This document shows, piece after piece, positions 6,865 through 41,268 of a stretch of 41,268 bases of DNA (positions within the stretch are counted from its first letter, which is position 1; each line of letters starts with the position of its first letter). Position numbers and translations under genes: made by a program. The DNA is from a bacterium (GTDB lineage: Bacteria > ARS69). A model generated the notes under the pieces. The model saw only the letters and a list, made by a program, of their open reading frames with translations. It was not told where the DNA came from and ran no database searches. Where the stretch lies: the NCBI GenBank assembly GCA_025774805.1, contig JALGZR010000040.1, positions 1-41,268 of the forward strand. The letters run 5' to 3'.

Positions 6865-7938
6865 ATGATCCCGAGTCGAAGCAGGACCGCAGGGACGGGC
6901 GCGGGGGCGGGGATCTCCGGGGGGACCGTCGCGGCGATCCTCGCCGTCGCGATCGGGGTCGTTCCCGCCGGTGCGGGCGACGGGAACGCCGGCGATGTTC
7001 CCGGGGAGTCCGAACCCCTTCCTCCCGGAGTCGTGCAGATCATTCCCCGGGGACGGTTGGCCGCCGTCTTCGAGCCGGAGTTCGTCCCGGCCGAAGAGGC
7101 CGGTCTTCCCGACTCCGCGTACGTCCTGGGCGTCGAGATGGACGGCGAGGCCCACGCCTACAGCCTCAATCTCCTGAATCACCACGAGGTCGTGAACGAC
7201 CGGATCGGAGAGACGCCGTTCGCGGCGGTCTGGTGACCGCTGGCCAACACGGGCGTGGTCTATGCCCGCGATCACGTCGAGAACGTCTTGAGCTTCGAGG
7301 CCTCCGGCGCGCTGAAGGACGCCTCCCTGATCATGCGGGATCGGGAGACGGACAGCTGGTGGTCGATCATGGCCGGCGAGGCGATCGGCGGCGCCCTGGA
7401 GGGAACGGCCCTGCGGGAGCTGCCGATCGGACAGAAGACGACGTGGGGTGATTGGCAGGCGCGCCACGCGGACACGCGCGTGCTCTCCATCGACGGGAAG
7501 ACCCATGTCGAGGAGAACGTCTACGCGGGCTACTTCGCCACCCCGAAGACCTATCTCGACCTGACGCCCGAGGACGATCGCCTTTCACCCAAGACCCCGA
7601 TCTTCGCGTTCCGCTGGCGGGGCCGGCCCCATGCCGTCCCGTACACGGCGATCACGGGAGGAGGCCTCTTCGCGCTCGGGGAGGACGAGGGCTGCGTCTA
7701 CCTGGAGCGGCCGGCCGGGGCCCGGCTGCTCGAGTCGACCCGTGCCGTTCACGTCGCGCCGTCTCTCCTCGGTGCTCCCTCCCAGTGCGACGCGGATACT
7801 AAGGCCCGCGTTCGGGCGGCCCTCCGGGACGAAGAGGCGGGAGGCGGTGAGGAGACGGGGCTCGCACGCCTGACCGGTTTTGACACCTACTGGTACGTCT
7901 GGGCTCCCCAGAACGAGGGGACGCGAATCCTGGAGTGA
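6865..7938 (+). CDS. DUF3179 protein with in-frame TGA: probable selenoprotein
   Basis: 357 codons if the TGA at 7234-7236 is read through as residue 124. Start ATG 6865 is preceded by GAGGGGAGG with 5-base spacing. A signal peptide (hydrophobic residues 20-38, VAAILAVAIGVVPAGAG) implies export. Both sides of the TGA are one DUF3179 domain in the same frame: AYSLNLLNHHEVVND before it, PLANTGVVYARD, TTWGDWQARHADTRVLS and FDTYWYVWAP after it. In the family this point normally reads Y-C-P-L-C-G-T-G. Here it is W-stop-P-L-A-N-T-G, so TGA sits exactly on the first conserved Cys, and the second Cys is Ala. A SECIS-like hairpin follows. No other stop or frameshift is present. The alternative is a nonsense-mutated pseudogene or a sequencing error. 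Redox function is inferred, not known. Confidence 0.72.
7250..7268 (+). promoter_or_regulatory. SECIS-like hairpin after the in-frame TGA
   Basis: Seven-pair stem CGGGCGT/ATGCCCG (one G-U pair) closing a GGTCT loop. The loop begins 21 bases after the TGA. Bacterial SECIS elements lie inside the coding region just after the UGA and present G/U in an apical loop to SelB; the E. coli fdhF element, as I recall it, has an AGGUCU loop at nearly the same distance. The stem is encoded within conserved codons, so covariation in homologues is needed to separate selection on RNA from selection on protein. Confidence 0.55.
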
Positions 7939-33450: not shown

Positions 33451-34542
33451 ATGGGTACGATGATCGACCTCAGGAAGCTGCTGGAACCGATCGGCCAAGA
33501 GGTTCCCGCGGGTCCCGATCTCCGCCTGGTCACCGGCGACACCACGATTTCCGACATCGAGGAGGCCCGGCGCGAGGAGGACCCCGCGGTCGACGTCTCG
33601 GGCCAGGGCAAGGACGCCGACTGGCCGACGGTCGTCCGGTCGTGCGAGACCGCCCTCGCGGGGCAGTCGAAGGACCTCCAGCTGGCCGCTCACCTCACCG
33701 AGGGGCTCGCCTGGACGGAGGGATTCCCCGGGGTCCTCGAGGGAATCCGTCTGATGTCGGGGCTCCTCGATCAGTACTGGGACGGGGTTCACCCCGGGGT
33801 CGAGGACGGCGAGATCATCCCGCCGGTCCGGGCCAAGTGGATCTCCTGGCTGGGGACCTCGCGCGACTTCCTCACCGCGTTCCAGTCGATCCCGCTCACT
33901 TCGGGACCGGGCGTCCCCGGGCGGAGCTGGCTCGACTACCAGAACTCCCTGCGAGTGGACGAAGCGGGCCTGCGCGCGGACCAGGGCGGTTTCCGGGAGA
34001 TGATCGAGCGCGGGATGATCCCGGGCGCCGAGTGGCAAGCGGCCATGGCGTCGACCCCGATGGAGCGCCTCGCCGAGATCGTCGAGAACCTCAAGGCCAT
34101 CCAGTCCGAGACGCGCGCCCTCGATACGATCTGTACCGAGAAGTTCGAGAGCCCGCCCGATCTGACCGGGCTCTCGGGCTGCGTGGCCGACTGCCTCGAG
34201 TACCTGGAGGACCGGGTGCAGGCATCGTCACCGGGCCCGTCCGCCGCAGCGGCGTCGCCGCAGGCCGCCCCGCCGACGGAGGCGTCGGCAGGCGCCCCGG
34301 CCGCCGCGACCGACGGAGGGGGACCGATCTCCTCCCGCGACGAGGCGTATCGCCGGCTCCGGGAGGCGGCCGACTACCTTCGCCGCACCGAGCCCCACAG
34401 CCCGGTCCCGTATCTGGTCGAGCGGGCCTGTTCCTGGGGCCAGATGCCGTTTCAGGATCTGCTGCAGGACGTGCTCAAGGACGCCAAGGCCCGGGCGAGC
34501 GTTCTGGAGACCCTCGGGATGAGGGACCTTCCGAGCGAGTAG
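33451..34542 (+). CDS. tssA: Type VI secretion protein TssA
   Basis: 363 aa from ATG 33451 (a second ATG at 33460 is possible). Residues 5-130 are the ImpA N-terminal domain: LLEPIGQEVPAGPDLR, ARREEDPAVDVSG, DADWPTVVRSCETAL, LAAHLTEGLAWTEGFPGVLEG and LLDQYWDGVHPGVEDGE. An Ala/Pro-rich linker (about 245-285) leads to the C-terminal segment AADYLRRTEPHSPVPYLVERA, typical of TssA. TssA caps the baseplate and coordinates sheath growth. First gene of the structural arm. Confidence 0.92.
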   Translation: MGTMIDLRKLLEPIGQEVPAGPDLRLVTGDTTISDIEEARREEDPAVDVSGQGKDADWPTVVRSCETALAGQSKDLQLAAHLTEGLAWTEGFPGVLEGIRLMSGLLDQYWDGVHPGVEDGEIIPPVRAKWISWLGTSRDFLTAFQSIPLTSGPGVPGRSWLDYQNSLRVDEAGLRADQGGFREMIERGMIPGAEWQAAMASTPMERLAEIVENLKAIQSETRALDTICTEKFESPPDLTGLSGCVADCLEYLEDRVQASSPGPSAAAASPQAAPPTEASAGAPAAATDGGGPISSRDEAYRRLREAADYLRRTEPHSPVPYLVERACSWGQMPFQDLLQDVLKDAKARASVLETLGMRDLPSE

Positions 34543-34614
34543 TCGGGCCGAAGGACACGAGTATCGGGTTTCCACGCGGTACTCCTGCGGGAGCCGCTCA
34601 CGACGGAGATTGTC

Positions 34615-35208
34615 ATGCCAGGTGAAAGCGTTCACAAAAAGAAGGAGCGGATTCGTCCGCCCCGGGTTCACATCTCCTACGAGGTCGAGCTCCACGGCGC
34701 CCAGGTGATGAAGGAGCTGCCCTTCGTCGTGGGCGTGATGTCCGACCTCAGCGGCAATCCGAAGGAGGCCCCGCCCAGGCTCAAGGGTCGGAAGTTCGTC
34801 GAGATCGATCGGGACAACTTCGACGATGTCCTGAAGAGCATGAAGCCGCGGCTCGCCTTCAAGGTGGACAACAGGCTCCAGGACGACGACACCGAGCTCT
34901 CCGTCGAGCTCGACTTCCAGAAGATGGAGGACTTCAAGCCGGAGAACGTCGCCCGGCAGGTGAAGCCCCTGGCGGATCTCATGGACGTGCGGGACCGGCT
35001 CAAGGATCTGCTCGGGCGGACCGAGGGCAACGACCGGCTCGAGGAGATGCTCGGAGCCATCCTCCAGAACGAGGAGACGCGGAAGAAGCTGAAGGACACG
35101 CTCGGGGTCGAAGCCCCCGGCGGCGGTGGCGAAGCTGCCGGCGGGGAGGCCTCCGGCGGTGGCGGTGAGGAGGCCGGCGGCGCGGAGTCCGGCGGAGGGG
35201 AGGGCTAG
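34615..35208 (+). CDS. tssB: Type VI secretion sheath small subunit TssB (VipA)
   Basis: 197 aa. Core family features: RIRPPRVHISYEVE, KELPFVVGVMSDLSG, LKGRKFVEIDRDNFDDVL and LAFKVDNRL. After residue 165 there is an unusual Gly/Glu/Ala-rich tail (GGGGEAAGGEASGGGGEEAG and similar) not needed in the usual 160-170 residue form. TssB pairs with TssC to form the contractile sheath. 2 bases separate its stop from the ATG of tssC, as usual for this co-assembled pair. Confidence 0.95.
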   Translation: MPGESVHKKKERIRPPRVHISYEVELHGAQVMKELPFVVGVMSDLSGNPKEAPPRLKGRKFVEIDRDNFDDVLKSMKPRLAFKVDNRLQDDDTELSVELDFQKMEDFKPENVARQVKPLADLMDVRDRLKDLLGRTEGNDRLEEMLGAILQNEETRKKLKDTLGVEAPGGGGEAAGGEASGGGGEEAGGAESGGGEG

Positions 35209-35210
35209 TC

Positions 35211-36704
35211 ATGGCACAGAAGAAGGGCGCCAAGGCCACTCCGATCAAGGAGCTCATCGAGCAGGACGGCGCGACGATTCTCGAGGACATGCTCACGACC
35301 GGCATCAAGCCCCGCGACGACGCGGCGAAGGAGCGGGGGCAGTCCCTCATCAAGAACCTCGTCGAGCAGCTCCTCGATCCGGGCATGAAGGTCCAGAAGA
35401 ACGTCACGCGGACGATCAACGCGCGTATCGCCGCGATCGACGAGCTTCTCTCGGCGCAGCTCGACGAGATCCTGCATCACGACGACTTCCAGAAACTCGA
35501 GGGAGCCTGGCGCGGACTGAACCAGTTCGTCATGAGCACCGAGACGGGGGAGACGCTCAAGATCCGGGTTCTCAACGCGACCAAGAAGGAGCTCCTGCGG
35601 GACTTCCAGTCGGCGGCCGAGTTCACCGAGAGCGGCCTCTGGAAGAGCATCTACGAGTACGAGTTCGGGCTCTACGGCGGGGATCCCTACGGATGCCTGG
35701 TCGGGGACTACGACTTCGACAAGGGAGCCCAGGACATCGCGCTGCTCGAGAACATCGGCCAGGTCGCGGCCGCCGCGCACGCTCCGTTCATCAGCGCGGC
35801 CGCTCCCTCGATGTTCGCCATGGAGAGCTTCACGCAGATGCCCGATCCCCGGGATCTCGCGAAGATCTTCGACAAGACGAATCCGGAGAACACGAAGTGG
35901 CTTTCCTTCCGCGACACCGAGGACTCCCGCTTCGTCACGCTGACCCTTCCCCGGGTGCTCGGGCGCCTTCCCTACGGGAAAGACAACCCCGTCGAGGACT
36001 TCAACTACCAGGAGAGCGTCGACGGAACCGAGCACGACAAGTACCTGTGGACGAACGCCGCCTACTCGTTTGCGGGGCGTCTGACGGCGGCCTTCGCCAA
36101 GCATCACTGGTGTGTCGCGATTCGCGGTCCCGAGGGCGGCGGCCTCGTCGAGGGTCTGCCGATCCACGTCTTCAAGTCGCGCGAAGGGGACATCGGGTCG
36201 AAGTGCCCGACCGAGGTTCTCATTCCGGACACGCGGGAGAAGGAGCTGTCCGATCTCGGGTTCGTCCCGCTCCTGCACTGCAAGAACACGGACTACGCCG
36301 CGTTCTTCGGGGCCAACTCGGTGCAGCGGCCGAAGAAGTACGACGACCCGGCGGCGACCGCGAACGCCAAGCTCTCCACCCAGACGCAGTACCTGATGGC
36401 GACCTCACGCATCGCGCACTACCTGAAGGCGATCTGTCGCGACAAGGTCGGATCCTTCCAGTCGAGGTCCGAGTGCCAGCAGTTCCTGAACAAGTGGATC
36501 GGAAACTACGTGCTGGCGCAGGACGAGGCCTCGCAGGAGCTCAAGGCGAGACGACCGCTCCGCGAGGCGCGGATCGACGTGACGGACAGCAAGGCGAACC
36601 CCGGCTGCTACCGGGCGATCGCGTATCTCAGACCACACTTCCAGCTGGAGGAGCTCAACGTATCCCTGAGACTGGTGGCCGACCTCCCGGGAGCGGCCCA
36701 GTAG
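35211..36704 (+). CDS. tssC: Type VI secretion sheath large subunit TssC (VipB)
   Basis: 497 aa, normal length. Recognisable stretches: AIDELLSAQLDEILHHDDFQ, LEGAWRGLNQFVMSTETGET, YGGDPYGCLVGDYDF, HAPFISAAAPSMFAMESFTQ, LTLPRVLGRLPYG, YLWTNAAYSFAGRLTAAFAK, and the C-terminal PLREARIDVTDSKANPGCYR with YLRPHFQLEELNVSLRLVA. Forms the outer layer of the contractile sheath with TssB. Followed after 50 bases by hcp. Confidence 0.97.
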   Translation: MAQKKGAKATPIKELIEQDGATILEDMLTTGIKPRDDAAKERGQSLIKNLVEQLLDPGMKVQKNVTRTINARIAAIDELLSAQLDEILHHDDFQKLEGAWRGLNQFVMSTETGETLKIRVLNATKKELLRDFQSAAEFTESGLWKSIYEYEFGLYGGDPYGCLVGDYDFDKGAQDIALLENIGQVAAAAHAPFISAAAPSMFAMESFTQMPDPRDLAKIFDKTNPENTKWLSFRDTEDSRFVTLTLPRVLGRLPYGKDNPVEDFNYQESVDGTEHDKYLWTNAAYSFAGRLTAAFAKHHWCVAIRGPEGGGLVEGLPIHVFKSREGDIGSKCPTEVLIPDTREKELSDLGFVPLLHCKNTDYAAFFGANSVQRPKKYDDPAATANAKLSTQTQYLMATSRIAHYLKAICRDKVGSFQSRSECQQFLNKWIGNYVLAQDEASQELKARRPLREARIDVTDSKANPGCYRAIAYLRPHFQLEELNVSLRLVADLPGAAQ

Positions 36705-36754
36705 GCTCGAGTCATCGGATCGACCCGCAACCATAGATCAGAGGAGAAGGCCTC

Positions 36755-37249
36755 ATGCCTCTTTATTTGGAGATCGACGGTCTGGAAGGTCCCGTCGCCG
36801 AGGTTCCCGGAATCGGGCTCGCCGACGTCTTCACCATCGAGGGGTTCTCGCACGGCTTGAACCAGTCCTACGGGCCGGAAGGCGCGTTCGCGAGGACAAC
36901 GGGCTCCGCGAACGTCCAGCTTCTCAACGTCCAGAAGAAGGTCGACGGCTCGACTCCCCTCTTGATGCAGACTCTTTGCCAGAACGACCACTACGAAGAG
37001 GTCAACATCTACGACGCAATTGCGCTGACGGGCGGCGAGCTGCACCAGTTCATGAAGATCACGATGCGGCACGTGTCCGTCGCGGACATCCAGTACAGTG
37101 GATTCACCGAAGGGGAGGCCCAGGAGACGGTCTCGTTCCGCTTCAGCGAGATCGTCTGGGATATCGACCCGCTCGACAAGGAGACGGGCGAGGCGCTCGG
37201 AGTGAGAAGCTTCGAGTGGTCCGCCGAGGCGAGCGGTACGCGCACCTGA
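36755..37249 (+). CDS. hcp: Type VI secretion tube protein Hcp (TssD)
   Basis: 164 aa, typical length. Pattern MPLYLEIDGLEGPVA, GPEGAFARTTGSANVQLL, STPLLMQTLCQNDHYEEVNI, HQFMKITMRHVSVADIQYSG and QETVSFRFSEIVWDI is that of Hcp. Hexameric rings stack to form the tube pushed out by the sheath. A strong ribosome-binding site (GAGGAGAAGG) fits the high expression usual for hcp. A gap of 151 bases with no visible feature follows before tagJ. Confidence 0.96.
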   Translation: MPLYLEIDGLEGPVAEVPGIGLADVFTIEGFSHGLNQSYGPEGAFARTTGSANVQLLNVQKKVDGSTPLLMQTLCQNDHYEEVNIYDAIALTGGELHQFMKITMRHVSVADIQYSGFTEGEAQETVSFRFSEIVWDIDPLDKETGEALGVRSFEWSAEASGTRT

Positions 37250-37400
37250 TATTCCGAATCCCGATCGCGGGTCGAATCGCGCTCCGGGAGGTCGTGCCGA
37301 GAAGCTCAGAGCCCCTTCCGCTCCTCGGTGACGACTTCTCGGAGTCGATCGAACCGGGCTTCTCTTCCTCTTCGATCGCTCCTCCCACGCCGGACTCGCC

Positions 37401-38234
37401 ATGATCGCGCACGACCTCTGGAAGGAAGGGCGTCTCGACGACGCCATCGAGGCCCAGACCGCCGAGGTCAAGTCGAACCCGACCGATTCCGAGCGCCGCT
37501 ACTTCCTGTTCGCCCTCCTCTGCTTCACGGGAGACCTCGAACGTGCGGCCCGGCAGCTCGATGCCGTCGGCATTCAGGACGAGAAGCTCCAGGCGGGAGC
37601 CCTCATCTACCGCAACCTGCTCGCATCGGAGGCGGAGCGGCGCCGGGTCTACTCGGGAGCCACCGATCCACTTCTGCCCGGAAATCCCCCGGAGTCCCTC
37701 ACGCTCCGGGTCGAGGCGATCCAGGCCGCCGGTCTGTCGGACTGGGAATGGGCTGGGCGAACGCTGCATCGGGCGGCGGAGAAGGTGTCCCTCGTCTCGG
37801 GGACCTGTGACGGCGAGAAGTTCGACCGCCTCGAGGACACCGACGAGTTTCTCGGTCCGGTCTTCGAGATCTTCGCCGGGGGCCGCTTTCTCCTGATGCC
37901 GTTCGAGAGGATCCGGACCCTCGAGATCTCCGAGCCGAAGCACGTCCTCGACCTTCTCTGGGTGCCCGCCCACCTGGAGGACACGGAGGGGAACGTCGCC
38001 GACGTCCACCTTCCGGTCCTCTACCAGGGCTCGAACGAGGACGAGCGCGACTCCATTCGTCTCGGCCGGGAGACGGAGTGGTTCGACAGCGGGGCCGGCG
38101 TGCGAGGACGGGGACAGAAGGTCCTGTCTCTGATGACCGGCGGTGAGGGCGGGCAGGAGGACGACCGCGCGCTCCTCTCCGTGCGGTCCCTGGAGCTCGC
38201 ATCCGGAGGCGATGCCGGCCGGGCCGGAGGGTAG
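37401..38234 (+). CDS. tagJ: Type VI secretion accessory protein TagJ (ImpE)
   Basis: 277 aa. N-terminal TPR-like ImpE domain: KEGRLDDAIEAQTAEVKSNP, SERRYFLFALLCFTGDLERA and LDAVGIQDEKL. C-terminal part has DEFLGPVFEIFAGGRFLLMPFERI, EPKHVLDLLWVPA and VLYQGSNEDERDSIRLGRET, typical of ImpE. TagJ binds TssB in some systems and modulates sheath recycling by ClpV. 6 bases before tssE. Confidence 0.92.
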   Translation: MIAHDLWKEGRLDDAIEAQTAEVKSNPTDSERRYFLFALLCFTGDLERAARQLDAVGIQDEKLQAGALIYRNLLASEAERRRVYSGATDPLLPGNPPESLTLRVEAIQAAGLSDWEWAGRTLHRAAEKVSLVSGTCDGEKFDRLEDTDEFLGPVFEIFAGGRFLLMPFERIRTLEISEPKHVLDLLWVPAHLEDTEGNVADVHLPVLYQGSNEDERDSIRLGRETEWFDSGAGVRGRGQKVLSLMTGGEGGQEDDRALLSVRSLELASGGDAGRAGG

Positions 38235-38240
38235 GCGGGC

Positions 38241-38729
38241 ATGGCAGGGCCACGACGGTCGGAGATTCTCCGTCATTCCGTCATCGATCGTCTCGCGGGC
38301 GGCCGCGGCGACTCGCCTCGGGGCGGCGACCTCCGCATCGGCGTCGAGGACCTCCGCCAGGTCGTCCGCCGCGACCTGGAATGGTTGCTGAACACGCGCC
38401 TCGTGGCGCAGGAGGTCCTGCGTTATCCGGAGGCCAAGAAGTCGATTCTCGCGTACGGTCTGCCCGATCTGAGCACGTTTTCCGTCGGGGGGGCGCTCAG
38501 CATCCGGGAGATCTGCGAACTGATCGCGAACGCCGTGAAGACGTTCGAGCCGCGCCTCCAGAAGCGGAGCATCAAGGTGGAGTTCATTCCCTCGAAAGAC
38601 ATCAGTGACTTCACGATGCGCTTCCGGATCTCCGGCGTCATCCAGGTCGAGCCCATCCGCGAACCGGTGACGTTCGACACGAGCCTGGATCCGAGCAGCG
38701 GCGTCGTCACGGTCGAGGAAACGTACTAG
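38241..38729 (+). CDS. tssE: Type VI secretion baseplate protein TssE
   Basis: 162 aa with the gp25-like domain: VRRDLEWLLNTR, SILAYGLPDLSTF, REICELIANAVKTFEPRL and MRFRISGVIQVEPIREPVTF. The catalytic Glu of phage lysozyme-type relatives is not needed, as TssE is structural in the wedge of the baseplate. The stop TAG shares a base with the GTG of tssF (TAGTG). Confidence 0.94.
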   Translation: MAGPRRSEILRHSVIDRLAGGRGDSPRGGDLRIGVEDLRQVVRRDLEWLLNTRLVAQEVLRYPEAKKSILAYGLPDLSTFSVGGALSIREICELIANAVKTFEPRLQKRSIKVEFIPSKDISDFTMRFRISGVIQVEPIREPVTFDTSLDPSSGVVTVEETY

Positions 38730-40618
38730 TGCGTGACGAACTGCTTCCGTACTACGAGCGCGAGCTGCGCTACATCCGGCGACTCGCCGCCGGTTTCGCG
38801 GAGCGCTATCCAGGGGTTGCGGGACAGCTCCTTCTGGAGCCGGAGAAGTGCGAGGATCCGCACGTCGAGCGGTTGATCGAGGCCTTCGCCCTGCTGACGG
38901 CGCGTATCCGCCTCCGGATCGACGACGAGTTCTCGGAAATCTCCGACTCGATGCTCGACATCGTCTATCCCCACCTCGTCGCTCCGGTTCCCTCGCTCAC
39001 GATCGTCCAGTTCGATCTCGATCCGGATTGGGCGAAGGAGGGCGAGGGCCTGACCGTCGATCGGGGAACACGGCTGTACACGCCTCCCGTGGGCGGGGTT
39101 CGGTGCCAGTTCCGAACCTGCCATCCGGTGACGCTCTGGCCCATCCGCGTCGAGTCGGTGGAAGCCATTCCGTTGGGGGAGAACGAGCCGGGGTGCCCGG
39201 CCGGCGCTCGCGGGGCGATCCGCATTCGACTGAAGACCTTCGGCGGGCGGCCTTTCACGAAGGTGGGAGTGGACACGCTCCGCTTCTTCCTCGATCGCGA
39301 TCCCGTCGTCGTCCACCGCCTCTACGAGCTCTTCTTCCGCGACCCGCGTGGCATCCTCCTCCGCGAACCTTCGCCCGCTCCGGGGACCGGCATCGAACCC
39401 GTGCTCCTTCCGGCCTCGGTCCTCACCCCGGGCGGGTTCGACCCGGACGAAGCGGTCCTTCCCTACCCGGGCGGGTCCTCGGCCGGATATCGCCTGCTGC
39501 AGGAGTACTTCGCCTTTCCCGACAAGTTCCACGGCGCGCGGCTGGCCGGGCTCGCGCCGGCGGCGTCGCGGGTCGAGTCCGACAGTCTGGACATCCTGGT
39601 GCTCTTGGAGGAGTTCCCGATCGACCTGCAGGGCAAGGTCTCGCCCGACAACCTCAAGCTCGGGTGCGCGCCCGCGGTGAACCTGTTCGCCCACGAGGCG
39701 GACCCGGTCAAGATGAACGAGACCGACGTCGAGTACCCGATCGTTCCCGACGTGCACTCCCCCGAAGCCTTCGAGGTGCACTCGATCGAGGAGGTCACGA
39801 GCCTCGCGCCCCGGACGGGGAAGGTGCGGAAGTTCCGTCCGTTCTACGCGCTTCACCACGGCAGCGAGGACCTCTCCGACGCCGCGTTCTGGCACGCGAG
39901 CCGCCGGGCGTCGGGCCGGGAGGGAGATCGCGGAACCGAGGTGTCCCTCACCCTCGTGGACAATCAATTCCGCGCCCGCCCGCGTGAGGCCGGCGAGGTG
40001 CTCAACGTCCGCGCGCTCTGTACGAACCGCGATCTTCCCTCACGACTTCCGCTGGGCCGCGAATCGGGAGACGACTTCCGGATCGAGGGGAAACCGGGCA
40101 TCGTCCGGGTTCGTTCCCTGCGGAAGCCGACGCTCACGGTCCGCCCCTCCCTCGGCAAGGAGGGGCGGTGGAGGATCATCTCGCACCTGAGCCTGAACTT
40201 CCTGTCGATCGTGGACCATCGAGGCGACGGCGAGGCCCGCTCGGACATCTCCGGCGTCTCCAGCGGTTCTCCCGCGCTCGACGCCTTCCGGGAGATCCTG
40301 AAGCTCTACGACTTCGAGGACTCGGCGACGACGCGACACCGGATCCTCGGGCTCGTCGGGGTGGCCTCGCGGTCCGTGCTGCGGAGAATCCGGAGCCAGG
40401 GAATCTCCGTGCACGCGCGCGGTCTGGAGATCCGCCTCCGGTTCGACGAGGACCACTTCGCGGGAAGCGGCGTCTTCCTGTTCGCTTCTCTTCTGGAGCG
40501 GTTTCTCGCCCACTACGCGTCGATCAACTCCTTCGTTCAGACCGTCGCGGAAGTCCGCCAACGAGAGGGCGTGCTGAAGAAATGGCCACCGAGATCGGGA
40601 GCTCGGCAGATCCTCTGA
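38729..40618 (+). CDS. tssF: Type VI secretion baseplate protein TssF
   Basis: 629 aa from a GTG that overlaps the tssE stop. N-terminus ELLPYYERELRYIRRLAAGF with AERYPGVAGQLLLEPEKCED and PHVERLIEAFALLTARIRLR is highly typical. Further on, YPHLVAPVPSLTIVQFDLDP, LQEYFAFPDKFHGARLAGL, NLFAHEADPVKMN and the C-terminal HSRGLEIRLRF-like VHARGLEIRLRFDEDHFAGSG. Wedge component with TssE and TssG. Overlaps tssG by 37 bases. Confidence 0.96.
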   Translation: MRDELLPYYERELRYIRRLAAGFAERYPGVAGQLLLEPEKCEDPHVERLIEAFALLTARIRLRIDDEFSEISDSMLDIVYPHLVAPVPSLTIVQFDLDPDWAKEGEGLTVDRGTRLYTPPVGGVRCQFRTCHPVTLWPIRVESVEAIPLGENEPGCPAGARGAIRIRLKTFGGRPFTKVGVDTLRFFLDRDPVVVHRLYELFFRDPRGILLREPSPAPGTGIEPVLLPASVLTPGGFDPDEAVLPYPGGSSAGYRLLQEYFAFPDKFHGARLAGLAPAASRVESDSLDILVLLEEFPIDLQGKVSPDNLKLGCAPAVNLFAHEADPVKMNETDVEYPIVPDVHSPEAFEVHSIEEVTSLAPRTGKVRKFRPFYALHHGSEDLSDAAFWHASRRASGREGDRGTEVSLTLVDNQFRARPREAGEVLNVRALCTNRDLPSRLPLGRESGDDFRIEGKPGIVRVRSLRKPTLTVRPSLGKEGRWRIISHLSLNFLSIVDHRGDGEARSDISGVSSGSPALDAFREILKLYDFEDSATTRHRILGLVGVASRSVLRRIRSQGISVHARGLEIRLRFDEDHFAGSGVFLFASLLERFLAHYASINSFVQTVAEVRQREGVLKKWPPRSGARQIL

Positions 40619-41268
40619 TTCGAGATCTTTTCGAGCGAGGCTACGAGTTCGACTTCTTCCAGGCGGTGCGCCTGCTTCACCGGATCGCCTCCGATCGGGA
40701 TCCGGTGGGAGGGGACGGCGATCCCGAGCGGGAGCCCGTCCGGTTCTCCTCGAGCATCAACTTCGCGTTCTCGCCGAGCGACGTCCGCGAGATCCGGCGG
40801 GGCCCGGAGGAGGGGGATCCGGCCGAGCTCGACGTTCCGTTCTTCGGGGTGGCGAGCCCGGCCAGCCACGGCTCCCTCCCGCTCTGCTACACGGAGCTCG
40901 TCGCCGCCCGATCCCGCGACCACGACCACGCGCTGCAGAACTTCCTGGACCTCTTCAATCACCGTCTGATCTCGCTCTTCTATCGGGCGTGGGAGAAGCA
41001 CCACTTCCCTCTGGTGTACGAGAGGTCCGACGTCCATACCGGCGGCCTGTTCGAGCACGCGCTCTTCTCTCTGATCGGGCTCAACACGCCCGGACTGCGC
41101 GGCCGCCTCTCGTTCGAGGATCTGGCGCTCCTGCGCTGGACCGGGATGCTCTCGCGCGTCCCCGCGTCGACCGGAGAGCTCGAGGATCTCGTGGCGGGCG
41201 TCTTCGGCGTTCCCGTCGAGGTGGAGCCGCTGATTTCCGGGTGGTACGGCATCGACCGCGAGGAGCTC
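40582..41268 (+). CDS. tssG: Type VI secretion baseplate protein TssG, partial
   Basis: The ATG at 40582 lies inside the end of tssF, and the frame is open to the window end (229 residues, about two thirds of a usual TssG). Typical stretches: FERGYEFDFFQAVRLLHRIA, PVRFSSSINFAFSPSDVREI, FFGVASPASHGSLPLCYTEL, LQNFLDLFNHRLISLFYRAW and LEDLVAGVFGVPVEVEP. Wedge partner of TssF and TssE. The rest of the cluster presumably continues beyond the window. Confidence 0.94.
   Translation, partial: MATEIGSSADPLIRDLFERGYEFDFFQAVRLLHRIASDRDPVGGDGDPEREPVRFSSSINFAFSPSDVREIRRGPEEGDPAELDVPFFGVASPASHGSLPLCYTELVAARSRDHDHALQNFLDLFNHRLISLFYRAWEKHHFPLVYERSDVHTGGLFEHALFSLIGLNTPGLRGRLSFEDLALLRWTGMLSRVPASTGELEDLVAGVFGVPVEVEPLISGWYGIDREEL

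Follow-up and report, generated by a model that had tools for sequence, protein, structure and literature searches.

A DUF3179 gene with an in-frame UGA probably decoded as selenocysteine, and a UPLA branch with a predicted Rieske-like domain

Sequence comparison indicates that a bacterial DUF3179 gene very probably encodes a selenoprotein, in which selenocysteine (Sec) would be inserted at an in-frame UGA (positions 7234-7236, codon 124; probability approximately 0.96). The gene was found on the forward strand at positions 6865-7938 of the window, i.e., the whole stretch of 41,268 nucleotides analysed here, and it has 357 codons when the internal TGA is counted as Sec. This TGA is the sole internal stop in the frame, which ends with a second TGA at 7936-7938. 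The read-through product matched PF11376 over residues 67-347 (E=1.6e-54, 185.7 bits), far more than the 27 bits that the curated cut-off requires for membership, and because this single match spans the TGA, both halves of the gene belong to one domain family. The single TGA in an otherwise continuous DUF3179 domain, as described in an earlier note on this DNA, is therefore real, and the motif given there, W-U-P-L-A-N-T-G with Sec at residue 124, is correct. Furthermore, a search of the whole genome recovered one DUF3179 match, and TGA 7234-7236 was the only stop inside it. Judged by eye, residues ~1-38 of the protein form a signal-like N-terminal segment. Upstream neighbours of the gene encode the beta subunit of an NAD(P) transhydrogenase and a UPF0029 protein, and downstream lie a gene without a Pfam match and then a GDSL lipase gene. 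Elsewhere in the window (33500-41200), the translations of several open reading frames (e.g., 35211-36704, 36755-37249, and 38729-40618) resemble a type VI secretion cluster by eye.

TGA and Cys at codon 124, and the machinery for Sec

An exchange between Cys and TGA at residue 124, one of the checks proposed in the earlier note, was found among relatives of the gene. To avoid bias, contigs were scanned with an alignment that starts after the tested codon. The scan returned 80 loci, and the codon just before the start of the match was TGA in 77 of them, TGT in 2, and TGC in 1; the scan patterns favour PL[AC][NF]TG, and the ratio of TGA to Cys is thus no unbiased census. When loci from whole-genome searches were added, the collection comprised 82 distinct TGA sites and 27 distinct Cys sites. 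The sister genome (G004) has an identical WUPLANTG motif, also with TGA. Sec124, His107, and Glu108 are among the most conserved residues of the protein, and UPL-x-x-T is conserved too. No DUF3179 relatives were found in the viral contigs searched.

These comparisons bear on two other accounts of the TGA. The first holds that the gene is decaying and that the TGA arose by nonsense mutation or by sequencing error; in its favour, the source is a single draft genome (5.1 Mb in 284 contigs, 96% complete, 5% contamination). However, the sister genome also has TGA at the homologous codon, as do 77 of 80 loci that were fetched independently and represent many phyla. Such conservation excludes chance or decay and bears out the argument against decay made in the earlier note. 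The half of the gene downstream of the TGA is also conserved as protein, and the hairpin described below is restricted to TGA genes, so that this account retains a negligible probability. The second account, a code change by which the lineage assigns TGA to Trp, Gly, or some other standard amino acid, would equally explain an in-frame TGA within an otherwise open gene. Nevertheless, the homologous residue is Cys in the non-TGA relatives found, the gene itself terminates with TGA 7936-7938 where homologous proteins end, and the genome encodes machinery for Sec; we regard a code change as every bit as improbable as decay.

The machinery that supports insertion of Sec comprises one strong tRNA-Sec match (72 bits, with anticodon TCA according to ARAGORN), SelA (E=1e-135), and SelB. 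In this respect the genome search proposed in the earlier note succeeded for tRNA-Sec, selA, and selB and failed for selD, of which a search of the draft genome itself gave only a weak match below the cut-off, though selD is present in all four of the other genomes of the phylum examined. We infer that its absence reflects an assembly gap. The selD matches in G004, G003, G002, and G001 (L027-L030) each contain one TGA, and SelD itself is probably a selenoprotein in these genomes.

Two kinds of gene arrangement were also observed around DUF3179 genes. In several Chloroflexota loci the DUF3179 selenoprotein gene is immediately preceded by a DUF1684 gene (L088:206-715 and L063:5006-5506), an adjacency that may point to a functional link. 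In other loci DUF3179 occurs in tandem, with a second copy directly upstream of the first (L100:4478-5599, L111:4441-5574, and L079:4253-5596). Separately, an apparently decaying DUF3179 copy occurs at locus L021 (G049:C169), a remnant whose motif reads UPLE and which carries additional TGA, TAG, and TAA stops.

A SECIS-like hairpin downstream of the UGA

Fold energy and comparison both point to a SECIS-like hairpin at 7250-7268 on the forward strand, with a 7-bp stem (CGGGCGU / AUGCCCG) and an apical loop GGUCU (7257-7261). The hairpin starts 13 nt past the UGA, its loop lies 20 nt past the UGA, and its energy is -11.4 kcal/mol. All bSECIS criteria quoted in PMC13188914 hold for it. It resembles bSECIS elements in its 5-nt loop with G at positions 1-2, its 7-bp stem, its spacing of 20 nt, and an energy below -7.5 kcal/mol, and it departs from them in that the lower stem is bulged or shorter in several UPLA relatives. 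ViennaRNA closes an additional pair within the GGUCU loop. In a 45-nt context of the window sequence, the minimum-energy fold is a competing hairpin rather than the SECIS-like one, and energy alone is therefore weak evidence. A search of Rfam at and around the hairpin gave no credible match.

The comparative evidence for the putative SECIS element, on the other hand, is strong. At least six of the seven stem pairs can form in 75/82 TGA genes versus 0/27 Cys genes (all distinct sites), the three inner pairs in 80/82 versus 1/27, and at least six pairs with one 3' bulge permitted in 80/82 versus 4/27; these are raw counts that ignore the kinship of the genes. The second stem pair, between base 1 of an Ile/Val codon and base 3 of a Tyr codon, shows compensating changes: among 78 TGA genes it is A-U in 63, G-C in 14, and G-U in 1, with no mismatch. 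In all 63 TGA genes whose pairing base is A, Tyr is encoded by TAT; codon usage elsewhere in these genes predicts 40.5 TAC. The three Cys genes among the 80 loci have an A-C mismatch at this pair. Cys/TGA exchange, tRNA-Sec, SelA, SelB, and the hairpin are all favourable to the selenocysteine interpretation proposed in the earlier note. On this comparative basis, the downstream hairpin would direct SelB and tRNA-Sec to decode UGA 7234-7236 as Sec.

The UPLA branch among DUF3179 selenoproteins

Whether selenoprotein forms of DUF3179 had already been described, a question the earlier note could not settle, is answered by the literature. Both PMC9312934 and PMC13188914 include DUF3179 among the selenoprotein families, with the motif UxxC/T. 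DUF3179 selenoproteins are attributed to the study of the Olavius algarvensis symbiont by Zhang and Gladyshev (2007), as that work is cited in PMC9312934. Given these reviews, the core of the present finding is already known. The protein encoded in the window belongs to the same Pfam family as the listed selenoproteins and likewise has Sec in a C/U-P-L-x motif. It differs from them in having UxxA instead of UxxC/T, and in belonging to a separate, well supported branch that lacks the second Cys. This UPLA branch, which extends over multiple phyla, and the Rieske-like predicted domain described below appear to be the new parts.

Position +3 from Sec is Ala in the window protein and throughout the UPLA branch, in place of the Cys or Thr of the listed motif. 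Across the 82 TGA sites this position is Cys in 66, Ala in 13, and Thr, Ser, and Glu in 1 each, and across the 27 Cys sites it is Cys in 22 and Thr in 5, with no Ala. The UPLA clade has nine members with support of 100/100, labelled Acidobacteriota, Krumholzibacteriota, Calditrichota, KSB1, and unclassified; a separate Acidobacteria pair that is also UPLA joins it at 88/88. Two further Cys residues occur in the window protein, both of them unconserved. In three members (L034, L037, and L048) Sec is the only Cys/Sec residue of the predicted protein, and an internal resolving thiol is therefore no general requirement in this branch. A comparison of gene neighbourhoods in the UPLA branch revealed no gene common to more than two loci, and thus no conserved neighbour that would hint at a substrate.

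Predicted fold and possible function

The whole-protein AlphaFold2 model is confident (pLDDT 88.6), and the first DUF3179 domain (residues 50-212; 7012-7500, forward strand; pLDDT 94.5) is predicted to adopt a Rieske/NirD-like fold without the cluster ligands. With this domain as the query of VIA-align, all 50 matches listed were Rieske proteins or NirD, the best with a Z of 7.8 over 92 residues at 2.9 A; with the whole model, the best 16 rows were likewise Rieske proteins or NirD. A structural Z below 8 can reflect a common arrangement. Foldseek gave no significant match for the full model, and its best hit for the first domain was not significant either (E 0.18). Aligned by hhalign with a 15-sequence Rieske profile, the domain alignment reached only E ~0.2 over 18-19 columns, which is not significant. 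Since Z is below 8, the Foldseek result is not significant, and no profile relation was detected, we term the domain Rieske-like rather than a member of the Rieske family. The likeness to Rieske [2Fe-2S] ferredoxins and NirD lies in the predicted fold of residues 93-197, and the DUF3179 protein is unlike them in that its sequence has no CxH or CxxH ligand motifs and no significant profile match. Of 47 members searched, none had a Pfam Rieske match. Furthermore, a sequence search for solved structures found none, and no paper on a Rieske-like selenoprotein came up in a literature search. We also considered that UPLC might correspond to the second Rieske ligand motif, and dropped the idea because the structural matches extend across the entire domain and, judging from their aligned ranges only, Sec would sit on the strand preceding the first cluster loop.

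In the model, strands 109-114 and 117-124 are joined by a two-residue turn (115-116) and form a beta hairpin. The conserved motif AYSLNLLNHHEVVNDR (residues 98-113; 7156-7203, forward strand) includes His107-Glu108, which are predicted to lie next to Sec124 in this hairpin, and from the secondary structure His107 would be opposite Sec124. Judging from strand order and aligned ranges, Sec would differ from the Rieske arrangement in occupying a beta hairpin outside the would-be cluster loops. As a tentative proposal, to which we give slightly less than even odds, DUF3179 may be a cluster-less Rieske-fold scaffold with a Sec/Cys-His-Glu active site in a beta hairpin remote from the cluster loops, and the UPLA proteins a Sec-only enzyme class from several phyla that dispenses with a resolving thiol.

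Regarding function, we lean towards a role as an envelope redox enzyme with a lone selenol. The protein would be exported, as its signal-like N terminus suggests, and the Sec124 selenol may be activated by the adjacent His107 and Glu108 for redox catalysis. Since UPLA proteins have Ala in place of the Cys at +3 and several of them contain no further Cys, reduction of the oxidised selenium would fall to an outside thiol or reductant instead of an internal resolving Cys. The selenol could instead be a ligand of a metal such as copper or mercury, in a metal-binding or detoxification protein. The lack of a partner thiol in the UPLA branch and the predicted adjacency of His107 and Glu108 to Sec would suit such a role, but in most of the family the residue belongs to a UxxC or CxxC pair, as is typical of thiol redox chemistry, and the UPLA branch has no conserved neighbours and hence none for metal handling. 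We consider a metal-ligand role unlikely.

The UPLA branch, which has kept Sec and dropped the second Cys, offers a natural test of whether selenium functions in the absence of a resolving thiol. With 77 TGA loci across many phyla, Sec forms of DUF3179 are widespread, and the family is easily mis-annotated, as standard gene callers split such a selenoprotein gene in two. A Rieske-like fold would offer a structural handle on DUF3179, a family of unknown function.
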